64,000 bases of DNA from a virus, in IMG/VR virus record IMGVR_UViG_3300035180_002574, positions 1 through 64,000 of that record; one strand, written 5' to 3'. Below, one piece after another: positions 11,916-29,226 of the stretch. The translations under genes were made by a program, and so were the position numbers. Position 1 is the stretch's first letter; every line of letters starts with the position of its first letter. The notes below the pieces were generated by a model. The model ran no database searches. It worked only from the letters and a program-made list of their open reading frames with translations, and had not been told where the DNA came from.

Positions 11916-11921
11916 AAGACT

Positions 11922-12131
11922 TTAGAAGACCGCCCGCTCCTCCACCTTGTAGGAGGTGATGACGACCTCGACCTTGGCGTCACCCACCACGCTGCCACCC
12001 TTGGCATGGTTCTTGGTCATGGCGAAGTGAGTGGCGGCGCCAATCGAGGCGAAGCCCTTGATGTCACGCCGAGTCAACTTGCCCGTGGCGGTATCGAACG
12101 TGAGGGCGGTAACGACGAACTTGGTGCCCAT
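11922..12131 (-). CDS. Hypothetical protein, 69 aa
   Basis: ATG 12131 (MGTKFVVTALTFDTATGKLT) follows GGAGG. It is a small beta-rich protein (VVGDAKVEVVITSYKVEERA) with a central helix (ASIGAATHFAMTKNHAKGG). First gene after the promoter at 12398. No family is recognised. Confidence 0.65.
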   Translation of the reverse strand: MGTKFVVTALTFDTATGKLTRRDIKGFASIGAATHFAMTKNHAKGGSVVGDAKVEVVITSYKVEERAVF

Positions 12132-12268
12132 GTATGTTACCTCCGACTTGAGGCTTGACTTCAATAGAAGGATGGCAGCTTTCACGCCTTAGCTGCCCTG
12201 TAGCGCCTTTGCGACCCGGACGTTTTCCGTCAGTGCGCTATCAGCATCGCTCACATTCTCGCCTTTCA

Positions 12269-12340
12269 TTGTCGATCGATGGCAGCCGTCGCTTTTTTTG
12301 TTTTCGTTCCCTGCCCTCGCCTTTCATTGTCGATCGATGG
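12269..12340 (-). repeat. Pair of 14-bp motifs
   Basis: Perfect copies at 12269 and 12327, each preceded on the plus strand by CGCCTTTCA, in the leader between promoter 12398 and ATG 12131. Confidence 0.9.
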
Positions 12341-12397
12341 TGGACCGCCGCCGCACGTTCCTTATTATACGCGGCGACGACCACACCACACGCCCTT

Positions 12398-12417
12398 TAT
12401 TAGCAACGCGCGTACCA
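12398..12417 (-). promoter_or_regulatory. Sigma-54-like promoter
   Basis: Minus strand TGGTACGCGCGTTGCTAATA: TGGTACG-N4-TTGCT. Single promoter for the genes 12131 down to 10972. Confidence 0.7.
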
Positions 12418-12526
12418 ACCACAATGTAATCAGGAATATATCGGGGGAAACGTGCCAGATAAGCGTCGGGCGCCCTAAACCACCTTCACTCACCGTGTGG
12501 ACAGATGCTTACATGTAGGATAAACG

Positions 12527-12563
12527 ACGAAAGCCCGCTCGCTTTTCAGCGGCGGGCTTTCGT
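12527..12563. terminator. Strong hairpin, probable terminator
   Basis: ACGAAAGCCCGC pairs perfectly with GCGGGCTTTCGT around a 13-base loop, 10 bases past the stop of gene 12573-13217. It closes the rightmost unit of region A before the promoter at 12398. Confidence 0.75.
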
Positions 12564-12572
12564 CCGTCAGTA

Positions 12573-13217
12573 TCAGTAGGCGTTGCTTGCGTCGTCGAGC
12601 TGGCGCGCCTGCGCCAGCAGCTTGTTCGCGAGCGTCACGTTACCCTCCTTGTCCGCCTTGCTGGCGGCGTCGAGCAGGACGCGCTGCTTCGCCTTCATGT
12701 CGGCGACCAGGCGCCGAGCGGGCGCGGGCATACCGGCAACGTAACCGGCAACCGTGGGCGAGAGACGCGGCGCCTTCCCCTCGCCCGGGTTTGGATCGAG
12801 GGTGAGACGGGCGCGGCGAGTCGCCGCCGCGAGCGCGGTCCCCAGGTCGTCGACCTTGAAGCCGCAGCACTGGAGCAGAAGAATGGTGTCGTGACGCACT
12901 TCGTGCGGATTCTTGAACGTGACGGGCTTCCGCTTCAGGTTGACAGCGGGCGCCCCGGTCACTGGATCGATGGCTTGACGAACGCCAACCATCGACGCGA
13001 GCCTGAGAAACTCCACCGCGTCGTTCGTCTCGTTCAAATCGAGCACCACGCCCACCGTCTCATGCGGAATGACCTTGGCGCTCGCCGCGCCGGCAACGCG
13101 CTCCACCTTGGGAGCCTTGACCGCCTTGACCGTTCGCGACGTATCGTCCAGCTTCGGGTCTTCGACCAAGCTGGAAACGGTGCCAGTCGCATCGGAGAGG
13201 AGAGAGGAAAAGTCCAT
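12573..13217 (-). CDS. Hypothetical protein, 214 aa
   Basis: ATG 13217 follows AAGAGG. The product (MDFSSLLSDATGTVSSLVED) has a low-complexity Ala/Val/Lys stretch, a central alpha/beta segment (HETVGVVLDLNETNDAVEFL) and an alanine-rich basic C-terminal helix region (RRLVADMKAKQRVLLDAASK). It is the only gene in its transcription unit, between two promoters and a strong terminator, which suggests a well-expressed product such as a virion or DNA-associated protein. That is inference. Confidence 0.65.
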   Translation of the reverse strand: MDFSSLLSDATGTVSSLVEDPKLDDTSRTVKAVKAPKVERVAGAASAKVIPHETVGVVLDLNETNDAVEFLRLASMVGVRQAIDPVTGAPAVNLKRKPVTFKNPHEVRHDTILLLQCCGFKVDDLGTALAAATRRARLTLDPNPGEGKAPRLSPTVAGYVAGMPAPARRLVADMKAKQRVLLDAASKADKEGNVTLANKLLAQARQLDDASNAY

Positions 13218-13339
13218 TGAAAACCTCTTAGGGTTTGGGTTCGGGCGGAGCTTGCGCCCCGCGATGAATTCCCTTGCCTTTCGCGCCGTCCGCCAGTAGT
13301 AGGGGCGAGAACTTTGTCTCGCTGCACCTTGGAATCACC

Positions 13340-13429
13340 TTGCCGATCGATGGTACCTGGTTTCCCCCTCCCACTTCGGTTCGTTCCCTTTTTCGTTCCC
13401 TGTCTCAGCCTTCCATTGCCGATCGATGG
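13340..13429 (-). repeat. Pair of 14-bp motifs (TTGCC variants)
   Basis: TTGCCGATCGATGG at 13340 and 13416, both with the same C-for-T change, in the leader of gene 12573-13217. These are the rightmost copies; none is seen in regions B to E. Confidence 0.9.
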
Positions 13430-13462
13430 GAGACCGGATTCCAGTCGGGACGGAACCGGCGC

Positions 13463-13482
13463 TATTAGCACACCTTATGCCA
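13463..13482 (-). promoter_or_regulatory. Sigma-54-like promoter
   Basis: Minus strand TGGCATAAGGTGTGCTAATA, with TGGCAT at -24 and GTGCT at -12. Downstream member of a tandem pair, 66 bases apart. Confidence 0.65.
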
Positions 13483-13528
13483 GCGGTAGGGTGATGTAGG
13501 ATAGGCTCCACGACACTCGCTCGACCGC

Positions 13529-13548
13529 TATTAGCAACTACCATGCCA
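13529..13548 (-). promoter_or_regulatory. Sigma-54-like promoter
   Basis: Minus strand TGGCATGGTAGTTGCTAATA, with TGGCATG-N4-TTGCT. Immediately upstream lies the palindrome CCTACAATGTAGG (13548-13560), a possible activator site; related TACATTGT or TACATGTA words occur near several of the other promoters. Confidence 0.7.
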
Positions 13549-13560
13549 CCTACATTGTAG

Positions 13561-15170
13561 GCTAAAAAGACCGAAACCACAGATGCCAAACATTCCAATC
13601 GGAAAATAAAAATCTTATACTACATGTAAGATAAAAAATTACTTTATACTTCATGTAGTGTGATGTAATAATAAAAAGTATTTATACGACATCGTAGGAG
13701 CTATAAGAGAAGGTGGTAGAGGTAACCAATAAGCGCCCAATGGGCGAAAAGGTAGGCGATGTGGGTGGAGGTGGTAGATGTGTGCCTGGCAAACAGGAGC
13801 ATCTGTGGCTTATATTGATTAAAAGTTACTAAAAAACCATAAAACCACCACCCACCTACCTCTGCACACCATTTCAAATCGCCCCTTATACCTCTAGAAA
13901 GTTAGTCAATAGAACCCAATTAGAGTCCCTATAATGATTCAAATGGGACTTATTACCACTTCTCCCCACCAAATGACACCTTTATAATTATGTTTTTTAA
14001 CCAAACATCTTGTGTAATTAGAAATAATTTGCTTTTTAGGTAAAAATATTAAAAATATTAATCGTTTTATTTTCCGAATTAGTTTAGAGAATATGATATT
14101 GAGGCGTCCACATTTTTGAGATGATTGAAAGGCATAAGTTAGTGAGGCTTATCTGGTTTAGTGAAGCTTATCTGGTTCTTAGGTTGAAGAGAAGTTAAAC
14201 GGAATATTAATTTGTACGGTATTTTGGAAATGCATAACATATTTTATTTTACAATATTTACAATTGATCCAGATGCCATAGACATTATCGGTGATATTTT
14301 GTAGTTAGGGAGCCAGATTATAATTGTTCAGGTTTCATGAGAATATGAGATAAGTTTTCATTTTATGTTTAAGTTCTGGGGGTGTCATATTAAGAAATTT
14401 ATTAGCGTGATCATTATCTTTACCGAAGAAGGAGATTTTGTATAACCGAGATCTTCAGCCAGAGAGATGTTGGATATGGTGATAATATATTCCACGAATC
14501 ATTTGGGTCATCAATTTTGTGGGGGAGAGGGGTTACAATTGTAGCAATTGATAATCATGGGGCGGGTGGCGTCATGCAAGGATTTTGGCAATAAAGATTT
14601 TTGCAATACGGGAAGCCAGCAAGGAACTTTCTTTAGGTAAGTTATAAATTTTATTAATATGAATTTTATTAAGGGGATATGATCGAGGGCTATATTATGG
14701 AGGTTGTAGAAAAGCGATGGAGAGGCAGGAGCCATCTTGTTCTCCGATGGAGATGGCTAACCATTGATTTGTGTTTTCAATTGATTTGTGTTTTCATGGG
14801 ATATTGGACCTGACAATATAGACGGCTTCGAGATCTTCATTGCGGGGCATTTGGAATATCATTTAGGCAGAACCAGCGAGGAATAGATTTGGGAATCGAG
14901 GAAGATCATATGAATGGGAGGAGTGGACAGGAGATTGAAGGAGATTGAAGGAGATTGAGGCGGGAGATATCGAGGGATTGTTTTTGAAAATTAAGACGAA
15001 TTTCGATAACATTTGATTTGGTTGTCATTTATTGGGGAGATGAGGTGGGGGTTTCCACATTTTTGGCAATGGAGCATTTGATTTTATTGCAAAGCCGGCA
15101 TTGAATATTCATGAGGGCGCGAGATAAGTTTTGATTTTTGTGGATTTTATCCGGGGACCAAGTTCGGGCG
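13561..15170 (-). other. AT-rich gene-poor stretch with relics of the CxxC family
   Basis: No intact gene is seen. Short minus-strand fragments retain family hallmarks, for example CRLCNKIKCS after an ATG near 15105, RWFCLNDIP near 14880 and a broken CW-x-x-YCKN block near 14600. Starts and stops are scattered in all frames. It looks like the decayed far end of the paralogue array. Repeats ACATGTAAGATAAA-like near 13620 echo the promoter-flanking words of region A. Confidence 0.5.
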
Positions 15171-15439
15171 TTGTGTTAGTTTAACTTTATTATTGGGCGG
15201 GGACCATAGGAGAGCGGAGGGGGTTTAAGCAAATTGATAAATTGGTCCCGGGGGTTTTGGTTCCATAATAAACGACGATCTTTTGAAAAGATCGGAGGGT
15301 GGATTGATGATTTGTGGTGTCGCAAGTATATTTGGCAATAATAATAAATGATTTCCCATGTAATCAGTCTTGCAGATTGTGGAATTATTTTATTACAAAA
15401 CCAGCAGGTGATTTGCTTGGGCGGAGCATTTAGATCATA
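15170..15439 (-). pseudogene. Decayed CxxC-family paralogue
   Basis: One frame reads QITCWFCNKIIPQSARLITW and later DQFINLLKPPPLS, matching the CWFCNK start and K/L-rich ending of the intact copies. The ATG is out of frame with it and the second CxxC is lost. It overlaps the next copy through ATGA at 15435-15439. Confidence 0.5.
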
Positions 15440-15744
15440 GGAAAGGGATTAATTTCTTTAATTTATTGGAAATTTGATCTTTATTGAGATGGGGGCAAGA
15501 TTATTTTTTCCGATTTGATTATGTGTGGAGATAATTAGCTGATTGGAATGCGGGAGAAATCCGAGGTATAAATTTTTGAAATAAAAATCGGATATTTGTT
15601 CGGGATGATTGCGATCATAGAAATAGGCATTATAGGCAGAGGAGCAGTCATTGCATATTGGCATGGAGAATGATTGGTGGCATCTCCATGTTGATTGCGG
15701 ACCAAATTAATTTCTTTATTGCAGAGCCAACAAGCGGGAATCAT
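15435..15744 (-). pseudogene. Frameshifted CxxC-family paralogue
   Basis: The N-terminus is MIPACWLCNKEINLVRNQHG. After a frame change it continues MPICNDCSSAYNAYFYDRNH, the second CxxC-x-x-x-Y knuckle, and the end is NKLKKLIPFL. All family features are present but in two or three frames. Confidence 0.6.
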
Positions 15745-16076
15745 AAGAAAAAGATCAATTGGTTTACTTTCTTTTTAATTTGTTCGATGGACATATGGAG
15801 AAGATTTTGTTCGCCGCTGGCTAGGATATTATCTCGATCCACGATGGCATAACCTCCCTCCGGATATATTCTGGCTCTTATATTGGTTTTAACATCAATT
15901 TCCCAGAATTTGATATCTGGTTTATCATGATATTTAAGAACGAAGAGGGTATGACATTGTGGGCAGCGCGAAGTTTTTTGAAATTCTCGAATTGAGAATG
16001 AATAAGCTTTTAATTCGGTATAAACATATGGAGTTTTGCAATAATGGCATTGAATATGAAAAGAATTGGCAATCAT
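15741..16076 (-). CDS. CxxC-family paralogue, 111 aa
   Basis: The start overlaps the preceding stop (CTATGA). CHYCK at about residue 10 and CPQCHTLF at about 38 form a likely zinc-binding pair. The middle is beta-rich (IKFWEIDVKTNIRARIYPEG) and the end is IEQIKKKVNQLIFFL, the family's helical C-terminal signature. Function unknown; no similarity to a named family is recognised. It is probably cytoplasmic and translated in a coupled series with its neighbours. Confidence 0.75.
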   Translation of the reverse strand: MIANSFHIQCHYCKTPYVYTELKAYSFSIREFQKTSRCPQCHTLFVLKYHDKPDIKFWEIDVKTNIRARIYPEGGYAIVDRDNILASGEQNLLHMSIEQIKKKVNQLIFFL

Positions 16077-16462
16077 AGGAATGGCAATAATTTATTAAAT
16101 CGTTTATGAATATATTGAATAGGAGAAGATAACAGCCAAATTGGGTTCAAAATCATAATGATTGAGCATTTGAATGGGTTAGTTTTTAGCTCGAATAATT
16201 TGGCTTCAAAATTTTTGAACAGGAATTCGATAAAAAGGTTATCGGAAATATGGAGCATAAATCTTTCCACCTCGAATCCGAGTGTGGAGCGCGTCCAAAA
16301 GTATGAGATTTTGCATTTGGTGCAATTAATAATAATAAAAGTATTTAATTTGAATGGAAGTTGATCATACCCTTTAAATTTATTATCGACCTCTTCGGGG
16401 GAGAGGAGAATATTATTACAAAACCAACAATGGGGCGTTGGGTTCATGCAAATGGAATTCAT
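16073..16462 (-). CDS. CxxC-family paralogue, 129 aa
   Basis: ATG 16462 overlaps the stop of the decayed copy upstream; a 15-bp duplication supplies a second ATG at 16447. CWFCNN (near residue 12) and CTKCKISYFW (near 47) are the two knuckles. The C-terminus is IHKRFNKLLPFL. The second half is hydrophobic (CSIIMILNPIWLL). Coupled by ATGA to the next copy. Function unknown. Confidence 0.75.
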   Translation of the reverse strand: MNSICMNPTPHCWFCNNILLSPEEVDNKFKGYDQLPFKLNTFIIINCTKCKISYFWTRSTLGFEVERFMLHISDNLFIEFLFKNFEAKLFELKTNPFKCSIIMILNPIWLLSSPIQYIHKRFNKLLPFL

Positions 16463-16789
16463 GCAAATGGAATAAGTTTGTTAATTCTTTTGAATATGAC
16501 ATCCAAATTATTGGGCGGGGCGGGGCGGGGCGGGACATAATCTAAAGAGAGGGGGCATGAGAGAATATTTTCCTTGGGCTTTGAATTTTTATTCAAGCGG
16601 GGCATCATTGTGGATATGGTAAGTACTTAAGCAAAGATCAGAAAATGGAACATCAACATTTATTATGTGAACAAAATTCTCTGAGGAGAGATGATAAGCT
16701 TGACATTGAACAGACAGAATGCAAAGTAACCCTCTTGTTCTTAGGTTGAGATATTTGTTTTGTGCAGCTCCAGCAAAAGAAAATTTCAT
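16459..16789 (-). pseudogene. Decayed CxxC-family paralogue
   Basis: From ATG 16789 the open frame (MKFSFAGAAQNKYLNLRTRG) is out of register: the +1 frame reads FCWSCTKQISQPKNKRV with the first knuckle, and the copy ends FKRINKLIPFA at a TGA overlapping the next ATG. A G-rich slippage tract (GGGGC repeats) near 16515 interrupts it. Confidence 0.55.
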
Positions 16790-17161
16790 TTATAAAAATG
16801 GCATAAGTCTTTTAACTTGATTTCTAATTAATTTTAGATCTTTGAGAACAAAAGAGAATGGAATGTTAATTACATTATGATTAATTCCTGAAAAGGTTCC
16901 AATATAAGTCTTATTTTCTTTTAAGTTTGCTAAAACGTAAAGATTATCTTTTATATAGATTTCAAAATAATTTAGAACCCAATTAATTTTATCTGTTTTG
17001 ACGGAATAACCAACCTGGCAATTATGGCAGTAGGCGAACCAACCCTGGATTGGTGGATTTTGAACATATGGACTTTTGTTATTTACAAAATCAATAAGAA
17101 AAGCGCCTTCTTGATGGAGGCTTGGTATTTCTTTATTGCAATAAAAACAGGTTGGTTTCAT
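16790..17161 (-). CDS. CxxC-family paralogue, 123 aa
   Basis: ATG 17161 overlaps the upstream copy's TGA. CFYCNKEIPS at about residue 5 and CHNCQVGYSV at about 48 are textbook knuckles of the family. The centre is beta-rich (NWVLNYFEIYIKDNLYVLAN) and the end is KLIRNQVKRLMPFL. Among the best-preserved copies of this part of the array. Function unknown. Confidence 0.75.
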   Translation of the reverse strand: MKPTCFYCNKEIPSLHQEGAFLIDFVNNKSPYVQNPPIQGWFAYCHNCQVGYSVKTDKINWVLNYFEIYIKDNLYVLANLKENKTYIGTFSGINHNVINIPFSFVLKDLKLIRNQVKRLMPFL

Positions 17162-17471
17162 GAAAACGGAATAAGTCTTAAGACCTTATTTTTAAGGGTT
17201 TAAAGCGGGAGATGAATGATGGATCCAATAGGAATATATTATTAAGAGCTATTTTATTTATTGGATAAAGATGAGTCATACCATCCCTTTCAGGAGAAAC
17301 ATTTATTATCAAAGCTAGCTTATCACCCAATAATTGGGATCTTCATTTATATCAACGGGATCTTTCATATAGGATGAATAACTAACATCTAATTCTTCTA
17401 AGAGAAGTTTTAAGAGAATAAGCCTCATTATTGGTCTCTTGATTACAAGAAAAACAATGGGTTAGTTTCAT
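17158..17471 (-). pseudogene. Decayed CxxC-family paralogue
   Basis: Starts MKLTHCFSCNQETNNEAYSL, then runs into stops; the end LKNKVLRLIPFS is preserved and overlaps the next gene's ATG. The middle is scrambled over several frames. Confidence 0.6.
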
Positions 17472-17825
17472 ATGAATGGCAATAATTTCTTAATTTTGTG
17501 TTTTAGTTCCGGGATGGTTAAATACAGAACCTGTTCCATTGGAATCTCAAATAATGTATATGTTCTATATATTCCATATTCTTTATATTTTTTCATTGTG
17601 CAAGCATTACCGCTATAATAAATGAATTTCGGTATTAGTATCGTCAATTTCTATATTAATGGAGCGGATTACTTGAATATAAACGTTTCGCAAGATAATA
17701 TAAATAGTTTTGCAATACGAGCAATATACGTGTCGGAATGCTTCATCATAGCGATAATCTTCTTCTTGAAATTCCTTATTACAGTAATAATAGTAGTAAC
17801 AATAATAACGGCAAAATTCCATCAT
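17468..17825 (-). pseudogene. Frameshifted CxxC-family paralogue
   Basis: The first part reads CRYYCYYYYYCNKEFQEEDY and CSYCKTIYIILRNVYIQV. After a stop, another frame gives YTLFEIPMEQVLYLTIPELK and HKIKKLLPFI. The tyrosine tract suggests slippage in the first knuckle. Confidence 0.6.
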
Positions 17826-18250
17826 GAGAATACGCTATACATCTTAAGTTTTTTAACTATAATATCCATATTATGGTTGAATAAGAACCAATCTTCGAGT
17901 TCGGAAATCATTTTAGTATTGACGTTGCTGGAAAAATTATTCCATTCTACTTTAAATGATTTAAGAACAGTAGATCCGTTAAAACACCACATATGAATAC
18001 ATAGGTCCTTATATGTAGCTACCACTGCATCTACTACCCATTCTTTAATATCTTCTCTATTCCAACTATAAACCAATTGAAAATCAGATCCGTTAAATTG
18101 GTGATGGCAGATAGACAGAGATTTATATATGAAAGTTATTTTATTGGAATTATTTATTGTTGTTGTTTTATTAACCTCAAGATTTTCCATTGCGGAATTA
18201 CACATAAAACAAACGGCATTAGGTAAATTGTCGGTATAATTTTCTGTCAT
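17822..18250 (-). CDS. CxxC-family paralogue, 142 aa
   Basis: ATG 18250 overlaps the preceding stop (AAATGA). CFMCNSAMEN at about resid 14 is the first knuckle; the second appears replaced by CHHQFNG. The body is beta-rich and Trp-containing (QLVYSWNREDIKEWVVDAVV). The end is DIIVKKLKMYSVFS, the full family signature. Function unknown. Confidence 0.75.
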   Translation of the reverse strand: MTENYTDNLPNAVCFMCNSAMENLEVNKTTTINNSNKITFIYKSLSICHHQFNGSDFQLVYSWNREDIKEWVVDAVVATYKDLCIHMWCFNGSTVLKSFKVEWNNFSSNVNTKMISELEDWFLFNHNMDIIVKKLKMYSVFS

Positions 18251-18675
18251 TTCAATATGGAGTAGGTAAGGATCTTTTGATTAATTTTTTGGAGATTTGA
18301 TTGTAGAATCCAATATGGAGGTAATTCCATAACGGTTAGTAGATCGGCATTTTTTCTACGTTCATACATAATTGAGGCGCCATCCACCAGAATGTTACTA
18401 GCTCGTGGAGCTTGAATGATTGAATAGATGATAAAGTTTTTGTAATTAAGAATTATAGATGACATAATCCAAACGCCATCTTCTTTAATCCAAGAATAAA
18501 TGATTTCATTTTCCGGAACATGTCGAAAACATCTAATTCTTATACTTTCTCGACCTAATGATCCTGGTGATTCTTTTATTTGCCAGGCTCCAGAATGGTT
18601 CTGAATATCTTTTTGGCAGAACCAGCATAGAGTTACTTTAGGAAAATCTTTTGGTAGATTGAGGTTCATTGACAT
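18247..18675 (-). CDS. CxxC-family paralogue, 142 aa
   Basis: I use ATG 18675 (MSMNLNLPKDFPKVTLCWFC) because other copies start close to the first CxxC; a longer frame reaches 18747. CWFCQKDIQN is the first knuckle. The internal block IYSWIKEDGVWIMSSIILNY resembles the neighbour's YSWNRED block. The end is LQKINQKILTYSILK. Last intact copy before the metalloprotease pair. Function unknown. Confidence 0.7.
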   Translation of the reverse strand: MSMNLNLPKDFPKVTLCWFCQKDIQNHSGAWQIKESPGSLGRESIRIRCFRHVPENEIIYSWIKEDGVWIMSSIILNYKNFIIYSIIQAPRASNILVDGASIMYERRKNADLLTVMELPPYWILQSNLQKINQKILTYSILK

Positions 18676-18791
18676 CTGCTTCGGACGTAGATATAGCACG
18701 TCTGGGATTATTAATGTATAATCTTTAAGACCTCGATGCACTGCCACGGGGTCTTCTGTGGCTTCATTTGGGGTCTAGCGGGAGCTTAGAC

Positions 18792-19289
18792 ATGAAGCAT
18801 TCTCTACTTTTTGCATCAATAATAGCCATGGCGCTGATGACGTTCAGTTTTACCATAGGCTGTGCAACACATAAACCAGTGGCACCATGGTTATACACGC
18901 ACGTAAGTCCACCATTGCACATAAACAATTTGCAAACCATTCCGGTTTGGGTTAATGGTAGTTTTAAAGCAGAACAAATTAAGTCAATTAAAGCAGCCAT
19001 CAATGAATTAACCTTCGTTCGTCGTTTTAGCGATCATCTAATGGTAGTTGTAGGCGATAGATTAGGAGACCGCAACATTAAAACAATCATTATGCATGAA
19101 TTTGGTCACATTTTTGGCTGCTTTGACTGCTATCACATAAATATAAAAAACAGTTTAATGGTTCCAATTTATGGTAAAGATCAAGCCGATTGCATTGATA
19201 AAATATCAGTCGCCCAAGTAGCCAGCTATATGGGATTAGATGTTAATATACTTAATTATTGTGTAACCCCTAATTTCAGTAAATTATGA
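18792..19289 (+). CDS. Lipoprotein metzincin-like metalloprotease, 165 aa
   Basis: ATG 18792 follows GGGAG. The signal peptide MKHSLLFASIIAMALMTFSF ends in a lipobox (FTIGC), so it should be a periplasmic or outer-membrane lipoprotein. At about residue 107 HEFGHIFGCFD matches the metzincin HExxHxxGxxH/D zinc site with Asp as the third ligand. There is no propeptide. It overlaps the next gene by ATGA, forming a two-gene operon. Such proteases are unusual on phages; a role in modifying the host envelope is inference. Confidence 0.8.
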   Translation: MKHSLLFASIIAMALMTFSFTIGCATHKPVAPWLYTHVSPPLHINNLQTIPVWVNGSFKAEQIKSIKAAINELTFVRRFSDHLMVVVGDRLGDRNIKTIIMHEFGHIFGCFDCYHINIKNSLMVPIYGKDQADCIDKISVAQVASYMGLDVNILNYCVTPNFSKL

Positions 19290-19903
19290 AAATAATACTT
19301 AGAATTTTTTTCTGGGTTATGTTTATAACATTAATGGGCTGCCATATCGACAAAGATTTTATCGGTCCAGCATATGTGATTCACGAGACTCATCCTACGC
19401 CGCTTTACGTGATACCAGTTTACATAGATGATAATTTCACAATAAAAGACAAAGAAGCCATTAAGGTTGCTGTTAAAAATTGGAACGAATCTCTTTGTGG
19501 GTATTTGGTATTAAAAATATCTTCCACTGAATTTAAGCTTGATCGGCGAACTATCAATCTTGCTGAAGGTGGCAAGGTTTATCTAATTCTTAAAACCTAT
19601 AGTTCCAATCCAATTATAAGTTCTAGAGACCACGCAAACTATATTGCCCTAGGTTTGGCTAATAAAGTGGGCGGAAATTGGTTATGGATAGTAAGAGATA
19701 GATTGGATGATAGCGATATCATCAATATTACCATGCATGAATTGGGACATTTATTGGGAGCAGAACATACACCCAGATACCTTATGAGCCCTAATTATTC
19801 TAAAATCGAATATCAATGCATTGATAAGTCCGCAATACAACAAGTTGCTGACAAATGGAGCCTACCCATGTCTAAATTGAGTTATTGCGTGTACAATGAT
19901 TAA
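19286..19903 (+). CDS. Lipoprotein metzincin-like metalloprotease, 205 aa
   Basis: Begins MKIILRIFFWVMFITLMGC, a lipoprotein signal with lipobox LMGC. The zinc site HELGHLLGAEHT at about residue 152 is a complete HExxHxxGxxH, followed by YLMSP, a Met-turn as in matrixins. It is paralogous to the upstream gene (both share VxDRLxD and the QVAxxxxL-x-x-x-x-L-x-YCV ending). Start overlaps the previous stop. It ends at a TTAA shared with the convergent CxxC-family gene. Confidence 0.85.
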   Translation: MKIILRIFFWVMFITLMGCHIDKDFIGPAYVIHETHPTPLYVIPVYIDDNFTIKDKEAIKVAVKNWNESLCGYLVLKISSTEFKLDRRTINLAEGGKVYLILKTYSSNPIISSRDHANYIALGLANKVGGNWLWIVRDRLDDSDIINITMHELGHLLGAEHTPRYLMSPNYSKIEYQCIDKSAIQQVADKWSLPMSKLSYCVYND

Positions 19904-20265
19904 GAAAAAACAAGTATCGTCTTAATCTTCGCATTGAAATTTTTTGGAGTTAGATTAGGCATCTCTTCCAAAGAGAACTTCCTAATTACTTTGGAGGGAC
20001 CTTTGTAATTATCAATATTAAATTGATCATCTTGAATTACATAAAATGTAATAGATTGTGGAGAAACGAAAGCTTCGCCAATTCTATTATCACTTATTCT
20101 GGTATACATTATCCAAGAATACCTAAACCCATTGACGTAATTATACCTAACTTGACATGAATCACATATCCACCAATCCAGTACAAACCAGAAATGTGTA
20201 GATTTTCTTAATTGAAGGTTGCAAAATTTGCAAATGTGATGTTCTTCTTCAGGAAAAGACGACAT
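19900..20265 (-). CDS. CxxC-family paralogue, 121 aa
   Basis: ATG 20265 (MSSFPEEEHHICKFCNLQLR) lies inside the end of the preceding copy. CKFC and CDSCQVRYNY are the two knuckles, followed by a Trp-rich strand (FRYSWIMYTRISDNRIG). It ends NFNAKIKTILVFS. Its stop and that of the convergent metalloprotease share TTAA. Function unknown. Confidence 0.75.
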   Translation of the reverse strand: MSSFPEEEHHICKFCNLQLRKSTHFWFVLDWWICDSCQVRYNYVNGFRYSWIMYTRISDNRIGEAFVSPQSITFYVIQDDQFNIDNYKGPSKVIRKFSLEEMPNLTPKNFNAKIKTILVFS

Positions 20266-20605
20266 AGAGGTCAACTTTTTTCTTCAACTTTTCTAGAGTC
20301 GGTAAATCTGGCTCTAATATTTTATTAAGTGTTAATGTCCTCTCGATCCCTTCCTTAAAACATCGAATATCTGTGGTGCCAGTAACATAATTGATCTCCA
20401 CAAATTTAGTATATTTTGGATTCAAAGATACTTTAAATATCTTCACAGAATTATCTTTGGGATCAGAAAAAATTTGTAAAGTATGATTGGTGCCGGTGCA
20501 AAGTCTTGTTGTGAGAGAGGATATTTTGTTAGGAAATTTCACACTTACATCGTGTTTATTTCTCATTTTGCACCCACAAACTGGGCAATTTTTGAAGTCA
20601 TCCAT
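20249..20605 (-). CDS. CxxC-family paralogue, 118 aa
   Basis: MDDFKNCPVCGCKMRNKHDV carries a CPVCG-C knuckle. The body is beta-rich (VKIFKVSLNPKYTKFVEINY) and the end LEKLKKKVDLYVVFS is one of the clearest C-terminal signatures. A second cysteine pair is not evident. Function unknown. Confidence 0.75.
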   Translation of the reverse strand: MDDFKNCPVCGCKMRNKHDVSVKFPNKISSLTTRLCTGTNHTLQIFSDPKDNSVKIFKVSLNPKYTKFVEINYVTGTTDIRCFKEGIERTLTLNKILEPDLPTLEKLKKKVDLYVVFS

Positions 20606-20633
20606 ACACAGGTATATAACCTGCCGAAATGAC

Positions 20634-21008
20634 TCACGAAAAGGTAATATAAGTCTTTATCTTATTCGCAAGTTTTTGATAACCTAGAGAAAAATCGGGC
20701 TCGAAAAATGGAAGTTGGACTATACTTTTTTTGTCTACAAATTCAATACGAAATGAGTTTTCGTAAAAATTCCAAATTGCCCACATTTTTTTCAGAGGGT
20801 CCACTAATAATTTAATTGTGCCGATGGAATCTAAATTAATGATGTTGGATACAATAATTACGCAATGATACACAGACGTACATGATCTACTCTCCGCAGT
20901 TACAGAAACACTTGTAAGAGAGCTATTATTGCCAATAGTTCCATAAATGGGTATTTCGCTATATGGCATTGACTTATTACAAAATGGACACTTGTTTATC
21001 ATCTTCAT
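20634..21008 (-). CDS. CxxC-family paralogue, 124 aa
   Basis: ATG 21008 overlaps the preceding TGA. MKMINKCPFCNKSMPYSEIP carries the knuckle. A beta-rich body (IIVSNIINLDSIGTIKLLVD) leads to the ending YQKLANKIKTYITFS. Function unknown. Confidence 0.75.
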   Translation of the reverse strand: MKMINKCPFCNKSMPYSEIPIYGTIGNNSSLTSVSVTAESRSCTSVYHCVIIVSNIINLDSIGTIKLLVDPLKKMWAIWNFYENSFRIEFVDKKSIVQLPFFEPDFSLGYQKLANKIKTYITFS

Positions 21009-21370
21009 GAGAATGTTAAATACATTTTAATTTTGTTTGTCAATTTCTCTAAGTTGGAGACATCTGGATTCCAAGTCTTTTCAATCTTGATTCTTTTATT
21101 AAGATCTTTGCCAGATGTCGTGCCAACACTGGACCAAATTTCAGAATATCCTTCATCAAAATTAATCTTAAGAAGATAATGCTTGTCTTGCATTTTCCCT
21201 AATCTAATTCTGATTTTGGTTCTCTCTATGTTTTTAGAGAAAGCGTTTTCTACAAAGCGCATGAGATACGCATGATCATCGCTTAAACACGAATAATCAA
21301 GATACTTGATCTTGTAATCTGTATCCATTTGACGCGAACAAATAGGGCAATTTTTCGTCTCAATTTCCAT
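21005..21370 (-). CDS. CxxC-family paralogue, 121 aa
   Basis: MEIETKNCPICSRQMDTDYK carries the knuckle. The body contains KHYLLKINFDEGYSEIWSSV, similar in layout to the copy at 20249. The end LEKLTNKIKMYLTFS is a full signature. Coupled to the next copy by ATGA. Function unknown. Confidence 0.75.
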   Translation of the reverse strand: MEIETKNCPICSRQMDTDYKIKYLDYSCLSDDHAYLMRFVENAFSKNIERTKIRIRLGKMQDKHYLLKINFDEGYSEIWSSVGTTSGKDLNKRIKIEKTWNPDVSNLEKLTNKIKMYLTFS

Positions 21371-21407
21371 ATTTTTTACTCATAAACTGATATATAATAA
21401 GAATAAA

Positions 21408-21839
21408 ATGAGCGTTAGTAAAGTTAAACACCAACACAAAATTATACTAGATTTTAGTGATCAAAAATTGACGAAATGCAATATTAAAAGATCTCTGAGA
21501 GATTTAAATATTGAACCCTTATTTAAGGATGTTTCCAACCATCTAATCGGGGATCAATTCATATGTATTGATAATGAAATACAGGTGGGCATGTATAGGA
21601 TAAGTCTCTTATTGCCTCCCGCAATATCTCGTTTCACAAGCCATAAGTTAAAAGAGTTTGGAGATTTCAAAATCAAAATCTTTGAAACCGGAAACAAAAG
21701 CGCCCGTGAAATTAATCTGCGCCAAGACGGTAGGTTCAAAGAACAACACTGGGTACAGAAAAATAACTACGCGTTAAAAGATCTAGAAGAGATTATCTAC
21801 CACTGTAAAAGATTAAATTATCTGAAAGCATTTATTTAA
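21408..21839 (+). CDS. Plus-strand gene within the array, 143 aa
   Basis: ATG 21408 has no clear Shine-Dalgarno but follows GATATATAATAAGAATAAA. It lacks the CxxC. The end (LKDLEEIIYHCKRLNYLKAF) resembles the helical ending of the CxxC family. It shares LRQDGRFKEQHW with the other plus-strand gene at 25419 (MKDSRFKNRAW), so these two form their own family. Stops of this gene and the convergent copy overlap at TTAA. Confidence 0.7.
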   Translation: MSVSKVKHQHKIILDFSDQKLTKCNIKRSLRDLNIEPLFKDVSNHLIGDQFICIDNEIQVGMYRISLLLPPAISRFTSHKLKEFGDFKIKIFETGNKSAREINLRQDGRFKEQHWVQKNNYALKDLEEIIYHCKRLNYLKAFI

Positions 21840-22426
21840 GAGAATAAAACGTACATTTTAAGTTTCTCTAGTAGTTTCTTTTTGCTTCTATATTTTCTCA
21901 TCGGAATATATGGAAGGCGTACCGTTGAAGGGGCAATAATTCTTGATGAATCTATTCTCCTAACAACAAGCTCACTTTTATTTAAAGTGGCAAAAGAGTG
22001 CAAAGAATATACATTATATTCGTCATTTATAATGACGAACTCCAACAATATCTCAGTTGGAAATATAAATCCATATTCCAAATTGAACTTTAATGGAATG
22101 CTTCGCACGCGCGTGTGGCATTTGTTGCAGTAATAGTCTAAGAACAATTTATGATCGGCGAGGTACTTTGTCAAGCCTGCAGTATTTGTAATATTGAATT
22201 TATTGGTTTTGCAGTCAATTTTTAATTTTACTGACCCCACATAACGAATCGCGACATCCACCTCTAAGTTAGTGCCACTAATATTAGGTGTAAGATAAGT
22301 CTCATCGCCGATGAGATGGTCACTACTTGAATTTATTTTTGAACATAATCTGAATAGAGCCGGTCTTCCACAACTAAAACAAGGACTATCATATAGAATA
22401 AAGTCTTTGATCGTAAACTTTTTCAT
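21836..22426 (-). CDS. CxxC-family paralogue, long form, 196 aa
   Basis: MKKFTIKDFILYDSPCFSCG has an N-terminal extension of about 15 residues ahead of the first knuckle, as in the copies at 23608, 24189 and 25946. YYCNKCHTRVRSIPLKFNLE is the second knuckle at about 100. The end is KKLLEKLKMYVLFS. It lies directly downstream of the RF2 gene. Function unknown. Confidence 0.75.
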   Translation of the reverse strand: MKKFTIKDFILYDSPCFSCGRPALFRLCSKINSSSDHLIGDETYLTPNISGTNLEVDVAIRYVGSVKLKIDCKTNKFNITNTAGLTKYLADHKLFLDYYCNKCHTRVRSIPLKFNLEYGFIFPTEILLEFVIINDEYNVYSLHSFATLNKSELVVRRIDSSRIIAPSTVRLPYIPMRKYRSKKKLLEKLKMYVLFS

Positions 22427-22431
22427 AAGTG

Positions 22432-23532
22432 TTATGCAAGTTTATCGGTTCCAGTTTTCAAATATGAAAGAAGAAAAGATTGTATGTTTCCGTCTAATAC
22501 CGAATCAGAATCTCGTGATTCCCAATCCGTCCTATGATCTTTAACCAGCTTATACGGCATCAATGTATATGTTCTAATATGATTTCCAAAAGAAATATCA
22601 GACATACTATCTATATATTTGTCTTTTTCTGTCTGTCTTTTTTTCATCTCTAATTCATAGAGTTTAGATTTTAGCATTTTAATAGCCATTTTTCTATTAA
22701 CATGCTGGTCTCTTTCGGATCTAGAATTAATTACAATTCCTGTGGGAATATGTTTCAACCTAACTGCGGACTCAACCTTATTAACATTTTGCCCGCCGGC
22801 GCCAGAAGCACGCATGGTTGAGATTTCTAAATCTTTTTCATTAATTTGAATATCGATGGTATCTTCAATATCTGGGGTTACTGCCACAGCGGCGAATGAG
22901 GTATGTCTGGCATCACCGGCATTAAATGGAGAATTTCTAATTAGACGATGAACTCCTGCTTCGCCTTTTAAGAAACCATAAGCATATGGTCCCTCAATTC
23001 TAATTGATACGGAATCCGTACAAATAGCACTATGTTCTTCTGAAGGCTTGGTGTCTAATATCTCTATCTTAAAGTCATTTGAGCCTGCCCAACGACAATA
23101 CATACGCAGCAATATAGTTACCCAATTAGCAGCTTCTAATCCACCAGCCCCAGCATTAATTGATAAAATAGCTGGATTATCATCGTTCGGTCCAGACATC
23201 ATCTGTCTGAATTCAAAGTCGGATAGATCTTTATGAGCCTTTTCTACCAGGTGAGAGATGGCTGCAATCTCATCTGGAACTACTTCTAACCCTTCTTTAT
23301 AGAAAGATACTTCATCATCAAACGTTTGCAATTTATGCAAAAGAGTGGCTAATTTTTGTCGCTCCTTCATTAAGGCAGAAGCCTTTTGAGGATCCGACCA
23401 CGCATCAGGTTTACTGACAAGGTGATCTATTTCCTCTACTCGTAATTGATATGTTTTAACTGGAATCATCTTTTTGAGAGAAACTAATTTCTCTACACAG
23501 GATTCAATCAGTTGATGCAAATTTGTAGACAT
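22432..23532 (-). CDS. prfB: Peptide chain release factor 2
   Basis: ATG 23532 ([20 protein letters not shown]) follows GAGGAAAA and gives 366 residues, the length of bacterial RF2. It contains the stop-codon-reading tripeptide SPF ([19 protein letters not shown]), typical of RF2 (UGA/UAA), and the catalytic GGQ ([19 protein letters not shown]) that triggers peptidyl-tRNA hydrolysis in the ribosome. There is no internal UGA frameshift site as in many bacterial prfB genes. It sits inside the CxxC array in the same orientation. A phage copy may favour phage translation termination. Confidence 0.95.
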
Positions 23533-23607
23533 GATGCACTTTTCCTCCTCGCACAACATAACAATTGCTAAAAATTTGTCAAGGCGCCGGCAAGGATATA
23601 AATTATT

Positions 23608-24192
23608 TTATGAAAATGTGATAATTGTTTGGATCTTTTTTAACAACTTTTCTTTTGGGACCGAATCAAAAGGAATAAGATCCAGTTCTATAGGAACAGC
23701 CTCTACATTTTCAGTAGAATAAATTTTTGTTTTATTTTCCGCCCAATCATTTTGAACCCATGATGAATTAACATTGAATGATTCCCAGGACAAATTAAAA
23801 GAGCCGATCTTACTATTAAAAATAGTAAGATTGCTAGATGTAAGATAATAATGACAGCAATCATCTCTGTCACAGGATAATTCCATATGTATAAAATTTC
23901 TCCGTAAAGTATTAAAAACTATTGACTCTATAACAAAATCATGAATGAATTCATCAGCACCTTCATATCTATGTTTTATTTCTCCGGTCGAACCATCGAT
24001 CGTACCCATTATATTAGGATATCCCGAGCGACCATTTTTTATCTTAAAAGAGATTTTTCCATTTTTGTATGGATTATAGATCTTTAATTTATCCGCAACT
24101 CCCTGGCAAAGCGTTGGGTATAAATCATTTTTACAAAATACACATTTCTTTTTATAGTCAACAAACTCTTGGATATTATTAAACTGGATCAT
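23608..24192 (-). CDS. CxxC-family paralogue, long form, 194 aa
   Basis: MIQFNNIQEFVDYKKKCVFC has the extended N-terminus and first knuckle. CDRDDCCHYYLTSSNLTIFN is the Cys-rich second site at about 100. The end is KEKLLKKIQTIITFS. Its start overlaps the previous stop by ATGA. Function unknown. Confidence 0.75.
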   Translation of the reverse strand: MIQFNNIQEFVDYKKKCVFCKNDLYPTLCQGVADKLKIYNPYKNGKISFKIKNGRSGYPNIMGTIDGSTGEIKHRYEGADEFIHDFVIESIVFNTLRRNFIHMELSCDRDDCCHYYLTSSNLTIFNSKIGSFNLSWESFNVNSSWVQNDWAENKTKIYSTENVEAVPIELDLIPFDSVPKEKLLKKIQTIITFS

Positions 24193-24728
24193 GAAAATAT
24201 TACCAATTTTCTTATCCTGGCTAACGTCTCATCAGGATTATTTAGATTTATATCTATCATGGGAAACTTAGTTGTCCTAGTTTTACCAGCGCTATCATAC
24301 GTAATGAACCAAGTTTCCTCTAGCTCATAGTAAGTTCTTACTTCTGATATTAGGTTATTTTCTTCGAACGTAACTGACATAAAATTAAGATCTACTCTGG
24401 TTATCTCTGGTTTTGTAGTATCAAATTGAACACTATAAACTGTAGAAAATTTAGAACACTCTTGACAGTCTACAAGCAATGTAGACCAAAAAATTCCATT
24501 AAAATTCAAAAATTTCTTTTGTGTTTTTTGGTTATCTTCTTTTATAAGAAGAACATTTCCAGTATCTATATGAACCACATACGCATCATTTGTTTTGTTA
24601 GATAGTGGAAATTTTATTCTACTTATATCTTCATGTTGATTTTTAGAATCTAAAAATAAACGCTCGTTACACACTGGACAATGTATGATAAAATTTAAAG
24701 CATGCTTCAAACTAGTAAAAGTTATCAT
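24189..24728 (-). CDS. CxxC-family paralogue, long form, 179 aa
   Basis: MITFTSLKHALNFIIHCPVC has the extended N-terminus and knuckle CPVCNERL. CQECSKFSTVYSVQFD is the second knuckle near residue 93. The end is ETLARIRKLVIFS. Start overlaps the stop of the kinase-like gene. Function unknown. Confidence 0.75.
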   Translation of the reverse strand: MITFTSLKHALNFIIHCPVCNERLFLDSKNQHEDISRIKFPLSNKTNDAYVVHIDTGNVLLIKEDNQKTQKKFLNFNGIFWSTLLVDCQECSKFSTVYSVQFDTTKPEITRVDLNFMSVTFEENNLISEVRTYYELEETWFITYDSAGKTRTTKFPMIDINLNNPDETLARIRKLVIFS

Positions 24729-25372
24729 GATTCGTAAAAATCTTCAAATACTTTCTTAGTTAATCCAGTGTCTATTAAAACAGGAACTCCATCTTTAAGC
24801 CCCCAAGATGATTCTTTTGCCAAATCTCCTGGCATTAACTTAAATTCATCACCTAACTCTTTGATTTCTTTATAAAAATCATTTTTACTTACCTCATCAA
24901 ATGATTCCGGCTTATCTTTATCTGTATTACCGCTAACATTTTTTAAACCGTATCTAATACATTCTCCGAAATCATCAAAATCTATACCCGTGGCTTTTTC
25001 AAATTGTTTAGCAGTTATTTTCTTTAGGAAATGAGTTTCAATCCAGGTAAAGTTGTCGGCATGTTTTATGATCTTATTAACATATTTTGACTTTAATTTA
25101 GGGTTTGCTTCTGCTTTATTTTGAGCAATGCCCTTATCATTTTTAGCCAATTTAACTACTGTTTTGTCGGGTGTCAAGTATACAATTCTTGAAGATCCAG
25201 AGGATAAATGCTTAAAATTGCGTTCCGCGTATTTTTTACGCGCATGATACGTTTCTAGTTTTTTGAGATTATCTAATACTGTCTTAACATCTTTAGAATC
25301 CTTGGGCAGCTCTTCAGCTTTTGCCAAGGATAAAAATATGCCAGCAAATCTCAATAGTTTATTAGTATTCAT
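24725..25372 (-). CDS. Kinase-like phage protein, 215 aa
   Basis: MNTNKLLRFAGIFLSLAKAE opens the protein. The block SSGSSRIVYLTPDKTVVKLA then KNDKGIAQNKAEANP resembles the glycine loop and ATP-binding lysine strand of protein-kinase-like folds seen in many phage proteins of unknown role. The catalytic HRD/DFG motifs are not obvious: LMPGDLAKESSWGLKDGVPV and LIDTGL may be the corresponding D-containing end. Activity is uncertain. It is followed by a coupled CxxC-family gene. Confidence 0.55.
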   Translation of the reverse strand: MNTNKLLRFAGIFLSLAKAEELPKDSKDVKTVLDNLKKLETYHARKKYAERNFKHLSSGSSRIVYLTPDKTVVKLAKNDKGIAQNKAEANPKLKSKYVNKIIKHADNFTWIETHFLKKITAKQFEKATGIDFDDFGECIRYGLKNVSGNTDKDKPESFDEVSKNDFYKEIKELGDEFKLMPGDLAKESSWGLKDGVPVLIDTGLTKKVFEDFYES

Positions 25373-25418
25373 ACGGTAAATACAAAGTTATTAATATTTG
25401 GTTATATTCATATATAAT

Positions 25419-25949
25419 ATGAACAGAATATCTGTTGAAGATTTTTTGAAACTAATTCAAGACTCTCAGGAAGAAGATTATACCACCGAGAGTGAAGAAG
25501 AAGTTTGGGCAAATGATCATTACTATCTTCCGGATAAGTACAAAAAACTAGAAAAATTCCTACATTTTAAACCGCCCAGCGAATCTATTATTGATCTTAC
25601 CAATTGTAAGAAGGACGACATTCAAGAGCTTTTATTTAAAAGTACGAAGTTTAAAATTGGTAAATTTACATTAACCATCAATAAATATTATGGAATCCCC
25701 GGAGATGCGGAATCTTCATTAGCACTAGACATTAGATTAATGGAACATAGGATCAAAACCCCAAATGGGAGTCCATGTAATATGGATTTTGATATCGACA
25801 TCATGAAAGATAGTAGGTTCAAAAATAGAGCCTGGCTTTCTTATTTTAATACCAAAGGCAGGAGTTATGGTATCGGAATACCCACTGATGTAGTAGTGGA
25901 TATTGTTAGATGGTTACAAGCCATTACCAAACTTTGTGCTTTTCTTTAA
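25419..25949 (+). CDS. Plus-strand gene within the array, 176 aa
   Basis: ATG 25419 (MNRISVEDFLKLIQDSQEED) follows CATATATAAT with no Shine-Dalgarno. There is no CxxC. Its block MKDSRFKNRAWLSYFNTKG matches that of the gene at 21408, and the ending VDIVRWLQAITKLCAFL is like the helical end of the CxxC family. The stop shares TTAA with the convergent copy. Function unknown. Confidence 0.7.
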   Translation: MNRISVEDFLKLIQDSQEEDYTTESEEEVWANDHYYLPDKYKKLEKFLHFKPPSESIIDLTNCKKDDIQELLFKSTKFKIGKFTLTINKYYGIPGDAESSLALDIRLMEHRIKTPNGSPCNMDFDIDIMKDSRFKNRAWLSYFNTKGRSYGIGIPTDVVVDIVRWLQAITKLCAFL

Positions 25950-26590
25950 GAAAAAATGATTAATCGTTTAATTCTATTCGTCGTCTCTGACTCAGAAACG
26001 AAATCTATAAGCGGAACTTCTAAGAAGTTTGCATTATGAGCGATAGCGTCATGAACAGCATCTAACTGATGGTTAGATTTGAAATAGAATATGTGGCTTT
26101 TTTCTTTAGAAGGATTATTTATTAACCTATATATTTTATAGGTACCGTTTTCCATTTGAAGAAAAAGTCCAAAAAATTCTGAATGTATCCCAGGGATGTC
26201 GATTTTGCAAGCATTAAAATCAATATTTAATTGATTTGAATTGCAGGAATATCTTTGGCAATCATAATTATCGCAGAACATATAAAAAGAGAACGCGCCC
26301 AGGTTATCATAAAATTCTTTAAATCGATTAATAATCGATATGCTAACATAATCATGCAAATGAACATTTTTATTATAAAACTCTATACAAAAATTATTAG
26401 TTTCATGTTCTATTGAAAAACCTACAGCGTATTCTTTTTGTTTATTCTTTTTGAGAAGATCAAAAATAATTAGTCTGCTATTATTTTCTAACTTCCATCT
26501 TTGTTTTCTTTTGGAATGAAAAACACACCTAAGTGAAGACCCGCAAAAAGGACAATGGGAACGTCGGTTAAGAAAATCAGATAAATTCAT
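25946..26590 (-). CDS. CxxC-family paralogue, long form, 214 aa
   Basis: MNLSDFLNRRSHCPFCGSSL has the knuckle at residues 13-16. A second Cys cluster (MFCDNYDCQRYSCNSNQLNI) lies near 108. The end is SETTNRIKRLIIFS. Function unknown. Confidence 0.75.
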   Translation of the reverse strand: MNLSDFLNRRSHCPFCGSSLRCVFHSKRKQRWKLENNSRLIIFDLLKKNKQKEYAVGFSIEHETNNFCIEFYNKNVHLHDYVSISIINRFKEFYDNLGAFSFYMFCDNYDCQRYSCNSNQLNIDFNACKIDIPGIHSEFFGLFLQMENGTYKIYRLINNPSKEKSHIFYFKSNHQLDAVHDAIAHNANFLEVPLIDFVSESETTNRIKRLIIFS

Positions 26591-26635
26591 GTAGCCTCAT
26601 TCCCTACAACATAACACTTCGGCAAAACATTGCAA

Positions 26636-27247
26636 TCAGGAAAATAATACTAAAGTTTGGATCTTTTTTCTTATTTTTCAGGATCAGCCCTATATTTATA
26701 TAATTTGTTAATTGGTAATACCAAAAGTGGTTCATAGTTAGCATATCTGTATTGTAATTTTGACGCTTTAAGAGTGTCACTTATAAAAGTTTTAGATGGC
26801 AAAAACTCATTAATTACTTTAAAATATCCACCATTGATATCTTGTATATAATAACTTTCCTTAACGGGTCGATGACCAATAAAATTGAAAATACATCTTA
26901 TCTAATTCCAATTTTAAACTGTATTCACATTCATGTTCTCTTGAATATCTCTTGTAAAAATACTTTCAGATAATCAATCTCATCATCTTTTCCCTCCATG
27001 TCACAAGAGTCGTTAGTCATACTAACAACCACATTAAAATTAATAGTTCCATTATACAATCTAACTTTAAGCGGAAAAATTATCCTTTCACCATCATTGT
27101 TAAATGATTTACTTGGAGAGAAACTGGTCTCATAACCATTAATATATGCTGGGTCAGACATGTCATAATAAAGAGGTGTAAGTGGTTCTCCACATAAGCA
27201 AGTAGACTTATATTCGAATAACTCCCCAAATTAGTTATGGCTTCCAT
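26636..27247 (-). pseudogene. Frameshifted CxxC-family paralogue
   Basis: ATG 27247 gives MEAITN, then in another frame GELFEYKSTCLCGEPLTPLY and MSDPAYINGYETSFSPSKSF to FKRT. A further frame holds IGHRPVKESYYIQDINGGYF, and the end KKIQTLVLFS is in yet another. All family parts are present but at least three frame changes occur, some beside A-runs. Confidence 0.6.
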
Positions 27248-28689: not shown

Positions 28690-29226
28690 ATGTCTGATTT
28701 GGAAATTCCAGAGTTTAAGTTCGCAATTCGTGAAGATTTGAACGATACAAAAGATTTATTCGTACCACATCGGGCTACAGCTCGATCTGCTGGTTGGGAT
28801 GTAAAAGCCGCAATGAAAGACCGCGCGCCTCTTGAAATGAATTTTGGCGATTGTGCTAAGATTCCTTTAGGGTTTCGCGCTTTTTGTCCAGATGGTTGGT
28901 GGTACGAATTGAAGCCGCGTTCTTCAACTTTCGGTAAAAAGAATCTCCATGCTTTATATGGAACCATTGATGAGGATTTTGAGGGCGAATTGGTGTTTGC
29001 CTGTCAGTATCTTCCAGATATAGATTTTCAACAGGGTTTAGAGGGATTATACTGCCGTCAGTTTAAATCTCTAAAAATAGAGTTTGGTGAAGCGATTGGT
29101 CAAATCATTCCAGTTCGTCGTCAAGACATGATTGTCACGCGTGTCTCCAATTCGGAGATAGAAGATCTCTATAAGCAAAGAGGCGCGGAACGTGGCGCTG
29201 GCGGATTTGGCTCTACCAGCAAATGA
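28690..29226 (+). CDS. dut: dUTPase-like nucleotidohydrolase, 178 aa
   Basis: ATG 28690 (MSDLEIPEFKFAIREDLNDT) follows GAGGT. All five dUTPase motifs are visible: RSAGWDVKA (1), KPRSSTFGKK (2), YGTIDEDFEGE (3), GEAIGQIIPV (4) and the C-terminal RGAGGFGSTSK (5). The enzyme hydrolyses dUTP to dUMP and PPi, feeding the thymidylate synthase below and keeping uracil out of DNA. It is slightly longer than the usual 150 residues. Overlaps the next gene by ATGA. Confidence 0.85.
   Translation: MSDLEIPEFKFAIREDLNDTKDLFVPHRATARSAGWDVKAAMKDRAPLEMNFGDCAKIPLGFRAFCPDGWWYELKPRSSTFGKKNLHALYGTIDEDFEGELVFACQYLPDIDFQQGLEGLYCRQFKSLKIEFGEAIGQIIPVRRQDMIVTRVSNSEIEDLYKQRGAERGAGGFGSTSK

Follow-up and report, generated by a model that had tools for sequence, protein, structure and literature searches.

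A Tandem Family of Zinc-Ribbon Genes with a Common C-Terminal Tail in a Lineage of Huge Phages: A Possible Host-Takeover Toolkit

The closest described counterpart of the gene family considered here comes from Bacillus phage G, for which a review of jumbo phages notes in one sentence an unprecedented expansion of zinc-ribbon proteins to about 35 copies (the gp444-gp474 region and gp32; PMC7824862). The guess offered there is that these proteins act as specific transcription factors or structural DNA-binding proteins. Here, we describe a tandem array of small zinc-ribbon genes in the IMG/VR virus record IMGVR_UViG_3300035180_002574. The window, i.e., the whole stretch of DNA under study, covers bases 1-64000 of this 181,177-base record, and the contigs analyzed are metagenomic. 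An earlier note on the window, made from its sequence alone, had called the family undescribed. This holds for the family itself, which is named by no database, solved fold or paper found, but the analogous phage G expansion was already in print.

The phage G array was located at positions 352560-371001 of NC_023719, where about 28 genes stand in tandem, accompanied by scattered copies. Both arrays belong to huge phages and consist of tandem paralogs with a CPIC zinc knuckle, a divergent beta body and a conserved C-terminal helical segment. In phage G, however, this segment reads YWKENDRYLxKIL and is not fixed to the last residue, whereas the window's family ends in KhKxYhxFS, and most phage G members carry the zinc ribbon in the middle of the protein rather than at the N-terminus. 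Profile alignment of the two with hhalign is limited to 24 knuckle columns (81%; 2.5% for the long members), and a search of 12 related records with a phage G member found nothing. Conservation of the phage G expansion across a phage lineage is not reported, whereas the present family occurs in 19 contigs. The phage G array looks like the same kind of thing, but a sequence match confined to the knuckle does not establish common descent. Taken together, the two sequence-unrelated cases suggest that very large phages have repeatedly and independently evolved tandem zinc-ribbon families as a strategy. Multigene families of eukaryotic large DNA viruses and phage takeover clusters, which bear no sequence relation to the array, provide an analogy only. 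Such families consist of many small, diverged tandem paralogs with a conserved core, a birth-and-death zone and pseudogenes.

The array comprises exactly 13 intact open reading frames (ORFs) of 111-214 amino acids (aa) on the minus strand between 15741 and 26590, in agreement with the at least 13 paralogs counted earlier. They align as one family, the existence of which is near certain. Three cysteines, C7, C10 and C43 as numbered in the first aligned member, never vary, and the penultimate phenylalanine hardly does. The common layout is an N-terminal zinc ribbon (CxxC followed by C/C or C/H), then a body rich in beta strands and a C-terminal helix with F-S as its last residues. Searched with a profile of the 13 members, the remainder of the 181-kb record yielded no additional copy; the profile did give weak, frameshifted pieces at 14.18-14.45, 15.03-15.77, 16.46-16.81 and 17.38-17.83 kb. 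These represent five or six decayed copies reaching down to 14.2 kb, two of which are also visible as DNA repeats. Since such remnants lie to the left of the intact genes, the array begins further left than position 15170, where the earlier note had set its start, and its left (far) end is decaying. The right limit proposed there, 27247, lies too far out, the ORF 26931-27161 being a non-member. Inside the interval, the genes 18768+, 19286+, 21408+ and 25398+ (named here by first coordinate and, where needed, strand), the gene for release factor 2 (RF2) and gene 24725 do not belong to the family.

AlphaFold was run on the window's own proteins together with their relatives, and two members, 20249 and 21836, gave confident models (Table 1). 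In both, the knuckle is followed by an antiparallel beta meander with the same strand order and by a C-terminal helix extending to the last residues. The models bear out the beta-rich body and helical end anticipated from the sequence. In the short model the helix is well ordered, with a predicted local distance difference test score (pLDDT) of 91 in the last blocks. In long members the two halves of the zinc site are separated by an extra domain, and profile comparison aligns long with short members over the C-terminal halves (94%). Throughout the alignments no catalytic residue is invariant, only the zinc ligands and the tail, which makes an enzyme unlikely.

Foldseek comparison of the two models with the PDB matched no solved fold (best E 0.30 and 0.14, threshold 0.001). 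Among the viral models of BFVD, three to five proteins labeled 'uncultured Caudovirales phage' were matched and nothing else. A0A6J5RKM0, A0A6J5RSP1, A0A6J5RX84 and A0A6J5RX69 have the same predicted fold (best template modeling score, TM, 0.82-0.88, with 32% identity over the whole length); the latter two are weaker matches (TM 0.53-0.58). Judged by their models, these uncharacterized proteins are probably family members. Scans of the members against Pfam, NCBIfam, PADLOC and PHROG gave nothing usable, and the statement that no named family can be recognized therefore stands for these libraries and the PDB. The CpXC family (PF14353) resembles the members in its CPxC-type start, beta-rich body and length, but it matched one member only, at E 0.067 and 13.6 bits against a gathering cut-off of 25.4. 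The one moderate match, of 19900-20274 to phrog_888 (1.2e-5), concerns a family with no assigned function, and five related distal members failed to reproduce it. Lar-like restriction alleviation (phrog_6422, E 0.022) was matched by a single member, and each of five known anti-phage defense families in PADLOC-DB was likewise matched by one member only (best E 0.0014); all were rejected.

Relatives were sought in IMG/VR with a DNA pattern for the C-terminal motif and then by profile-guided scans, which depend on conserved peptide patterns and miss distant relatives. The pattern occurs in 65 loci; family members are present in 15 of these, mostly arranged in tandem (22 members within one 12.6-kb stretch in L032). 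With the profile-guided scans, the count rises to 19 IMG/VR contigs in which the array, in the same gene order, accompanies a close copy of gene 24725. Several of these records measure 178-481 kb, the largest having 480,838 bases. The array is present in all 19 contigs with a close homolog of 24725 and in none of the 13 whose only homolog is distant. The number of copies lies between 7 and about 36 (25-28 in L073, L074 and L076; 23 in L075; about 32 in the record of L078 and L091; about 36 in a 42.8-kb fragment with L084 and L095), and the larger genomes hold a few extra members outside the array. Such phages thus give 10-15 kb to one family, about 6% of the window's record, in fixed order across deeply diverged genomes. 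A tblastn search of 50,697 phage records with two queries found no family member, nor did two pattern-limited scans of 84,980 prokaryote genomes, in which the sole match, L107 (Bryobacterales), was an unrelated short zinc ribbon. An assignment of the lineage to the Moraphages was not made, as PMC12619734 mentions neither the release factor nor the zinc family.

The order of genes is identical in all loci, namely 25946/24189/23608/(RF2)/21836/21005/20634/20249, followed by lineage-specific members. The flanks are collinear as well, with the dUTPase, a 306-aa gene (29223-30143), the SET-domain protein and a DnaQ-type exonuclease on one side and the matrixin on the other. Orthologs, grouped by reciprocal best hits, match down to E ~1e-70 in the same order in unrelated contigs, and therefore the array is not a product of chance. 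Since a self-built profile gives its own members E-values that are too favorable, this collinearity is taken as the independent evidence. The core ortholog groups are monophyletic, most with good support; within group 1, identity is about 40% for the 20249 protein and up to 67% among the others.

Bodies are 23-36% identical between orthologs of distant phages, compared with 9-11% between paralogs of one genome, and the ends of such orthologs are 30-72% identical. The contrast of fixed ends and divergent bodies described in the earlier note is therefore real among paralogs, in which the zinc ligands and the penultimate F are kept. Its explanation by diversifying selection on the middle was not supported: the orthologs are old, collinear and monophyletic, and synonymous sites are saturated (proportion of synonymous differences, pS, 0.66-0.95) with a lower nonsynonymous divergence (dN 0.13-0.88), which indicates net purifying selection and carries no power for episodic positive selection. 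The near-identical pairs L082/L083 and L103/L104 have only 2 differences each, no basis for a proper dN/dS. On these sequence comparisons, the members are old, specialized paralogs under purifying selection with birth and death at the distal end, rather than hypervariable genes. Such distal turnover is the grain of truth in the diversification claim.

The second conserved feature is the C-terminal tail. Neighboring genes overlap by exactly 4 nucleotides (ATGA) in 100 pairs, which indicates translational coupling. The F-S ending is not a by-product of this overlap: among 128 genes without a stop/start overlap, 92 end in Ser, for which all six codons are used, and 113 have Phe in the penultimate position. 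The ending is thus selected as protein. An F[SLITA] ending occurs in 232 of 279 members, compared with 34 of 612 other genes, most of which belong to two companion families; in the window's own record it occurs in 5 of 147 other genes, two companions included. The companions, 25398+ and 21408+, are homologous to each other (96%, 4e-9) and share an -AF(L/I) ending. Profile comparison detected no homology between them and the zinc family, and the idea that they are zinc-less family members was dropped for want of such support. The presence of the same tail on two apparently unrelated families, encoded on both strands, is the most suggestive single fact of the analysis, and the tail may serve as a docking or sorting tag. 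TGA is the stop codon in 151 of 230 cases in the array, more than in the rest of the record; a special use of UGA tied to the embedded RF2 was considered, but the ATGA overlaps explain the excess.

The reading that we prefer, with a probability of about 0.38, is a translationally coupled host-takeover toolkit of non-catalytic adaptor or inhibitor proteins which share a C-terminal docking tail. It is favored by the lack of an invariant catalytic residue and by the surroundings of the array, which are genes of nucleotide metabolism (dUTPase, DnaQ-type exonuclease, SET protein, RF2) and not virion genes, the structural module (L003) lying away from it. In such a system, a lineage-wide multigene family would be made as one or a few polycistronic, coupled messages, yielding non-catalytic binding proteins of the takeover phase. 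Each member would bind a different host or phage target with its own beta surface, and the common helix and tail would dock all of them on one shared partner or sort them to one place. The proximal members would form a fixed core that nearly all phages of the lineage need, and the distal members a birth-and-death zone of host-specific tools gained and lost. Several points weigh against this reading. The takeover role is argued from position and analogy. The companions may be homologs too diverged to be recognized as such; the common ending would then be inherited and not a separate tag. The helix is ordered in the short model, so that folding, and not docking, may be the reason why the tail is conserved. 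The isoelectric points (pI) of the members extend from about 5 to 9.4, so no single type of ligand is implied. Finally, RF2 is missing at this place in L121, L125 and L039 and is therefore not an obligate part.

Among the alternatives, the one that survives best, although it is rather unlikely, is that the members are nucleic-acid-binding regulators, i.e., zinc-ribbon factors of transcription or translation which control genes of the phage itself, acting perhaps at the repeated leaders of a GC-rich gene block. Besides the guess made for phage G, this is supported by the mostly basic core groups 0, 1 and 3 (pI 8.3-9.5), by the position of RF2 inside the array, and by several relatives in which a GC-rich block follows the array and carries a strongly strand-biased repeated leader, a different one from phage to phage. 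However, groups 4 and 6 are acidic (pI about 5-6, with a few higher), neither Foldseek nor the library scans found a helix-turn-helix or a known nucleic-acid-binding fold, and the link between members and motif is hypothetical. An unlikely extension of the tag idea is a modular effector system, in which at least two unrelated folds on both strands carry the same selected tail and one dedicated partner collects them. If true, huge phages would gain up to about 36 interchangeable modules acting on the host, a set that can be expanded; the selected common tail poses the concrete question of what recognizes it.

Packaged or structural proteins would also account for a shared tail, which would then be a packaging or assembly signal on hetero-oligomer subunits or internal head proteins, with the internal proteins of phage T4 as the analogy. 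One tail on two families suggests sorting, and the fixed order and ATGA coupling fit co-assembly. Such a role is clearly unlikely given the distance from the structural module and the variation in copy number. T4-type internal head proteins are present in the virion and have a cleaved N-terminal targeting sequence; the conserved ends here are a zinc knuckle and a C-terminus with no cleavage motif. Nonpolar C-termini are known degrons, and the tail, which stands at the extreme C-terminus and is selected as protein, could be read by a host or phage protease, making the members short-lived early factors. This is quite improbable, as the tail of the short model lies within an ordered helix and a degron would account for the tail while leaving the bodies unexplained. 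The system favored in the earlier note, one of decoys or surface variation evolving fast under diversifying selection, is very improbable: paralog bodies differ strongly and distal members turn over and decay, but the orthologs are old and in fixed order under purifying selection, no signal peptides were noted, and no cassette exchange or DNA-level repeats driving variation were seen.

Table 1. Coordinates of the array genes, decayed copies and embedded genes in the window (pTM, predicted template modeling score).
Feature	Position	Strand	Basis
Family member, first gene of array, 214 aa, CPFC...RLIIFS	25946..26590	-	Profile; groups with L084 member (group 29)
Zinc-less companion 1, 183 aa, ends KLCAFL	25398..25949	+	Orthologs in 11 loci, same place; homologous to 21408+
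Conserved non-family gene, 215 aa, phrog_4301, lineage marker	24725..25372	-	Array in 19/19 contigs with a close copy, 0/13 with only a distant one
Family member, 179 aa, CPVC...KLVIFS	24189..24728	-	Profile; ortholog group 4, 9 phages
Family member, 194 aa, CVFC...TIITFS	23608..24192	-	Shares its order position with members in 5 other loci
Release factor 2, 375 aa, SPF and GGQ motifs, embedded in array	22432..23559	-	52-68% identical copies, same place, most related loci
Family member, 196 aa, TIKDFI..PCFSC...KMYVLFS	21836..22426	-	AlphaFold pLDDT 85, pTM 0.80; ortholog group 0, 14 good orthologs
Zinc-less companion 2, 143 aa, ends YLKAFI	21408..21839	+	Orthologs in 9 loci; homologous to 25398+
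Family member, 121 aa, CPIC...KMYLTFS	21005..21370	-	Ortholog group 3, 10 phages
Family member, 124 aa, CPFC...KTYITFS, 4-nucleotide ATGA overlap with preceding gene	20634..21008	-	Ortholog group 2, 11 loci
Family member, 118 aa, CPVC...DLYVVFS	20249..20605	-	AlphaFold pLDDT 88, pTM 0.80; ortholog group 1, 13 loci
Family member, 124 aa from TTG (ATG at 20265 likelier), CKFC...TILVFS	19900..20274	-	Profile
Matrixin/astacin-like lipoprotein, HExxH	19286..19903	+	Pfam Peptidase_M10 1.4e-5; orthologs beyond array in 7 phages
Second, related matrixin-like lipoprotein	18768..19289	+	Conserved in relatives
Family member, 166 aa from GTG (ATG at ~18672 likelier), CWFC...TYSILK	18247..18747	-	Profile
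Family member, 142 aa, CFMC...KMYSVFS	17822..18250	-	Profile
Decayed copy/copies, several frames (CFSC; CSYC; KKLLPFI end)	17385..17834	-	Weak profile matches, three frames
Family member, 123 aa, CFYC...RLMPFL	16790..17161	-	Profile
Decayed copy (KRINKLIPFA end)	16462..16811	-	Weak profile matches
Family member, 129 aa, CWFC...KLLPFL	16073..16462	-	Profile
Family member, most divergent, 111 aa, CHYC/CPQC...QLIFFL	15741..16076	-	Profile
Two decayed copies (CWLC / CNDC split by frameshift; CWFC)	15032..15774	-	Profile pieces, DNA repeats
Decayed copy (CKYC; KMKTYLIFS end)	14182..14454	-	Profile pieces, DNA repeats

The embedded RF2 has intact motifs (SPF within RNSPFNAG, and GGQ) and PHROG release-factor matches; it is kept inside the array in most related loci, and the phage that encodes it appears to use the standard code. 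Gene 24725 looks kinase-like by eye (SSRIVYLTP..VVKLAKN...LIDTG) and is 60-81% identical in relatives, with distant homologs in Xanthomonas phage XacN1 and Alishewanella phages. The two lipoproteins listed in Table 1 are matrixin/astacin-like metalloproteases, and at least 7 relatives keep them at the array's far end. The SET-domain protein (30464-30946, plus strand; Pfam PF00856, E 2.8e-12) is conserved in relatives beside the dUTPase and the exonuclease.

Window positions 1-13900 form a GC-rich gene block (about 55%) in an otherwise ~34% GC phage. The sequence TTGTCGATCGATGG occurs there in 26 copies against 0.43 expected, on one strand only, between 4.4 and 13.4 kb, and many copies stand directly before genes. 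The relatives L086, L091, L092, L093 and L094 have an equivalent block beside the array, with some homologous genes and a different repeated leader (CTCCCATTCACGG in the L086 and L093 records, CCCATCGCCAAACGG in L091, GGCATACTC in L092 and CCTACACCCTGCC in L094), which looks like a regulator-operator pair changing together. Words of the T4-type late promoter gave no usable signal. Elsewhere in the record, the gene at 8897-10261 of L002 (record bases 72897-74261) resembles, by eye only, an FtsZ/tubulin-like GTPase (GGGSGAGS motif), and window positions 401-507 hold a microsatellite of 26.8 perfect or near-perfect AGAC units, which is unusual in a phage.

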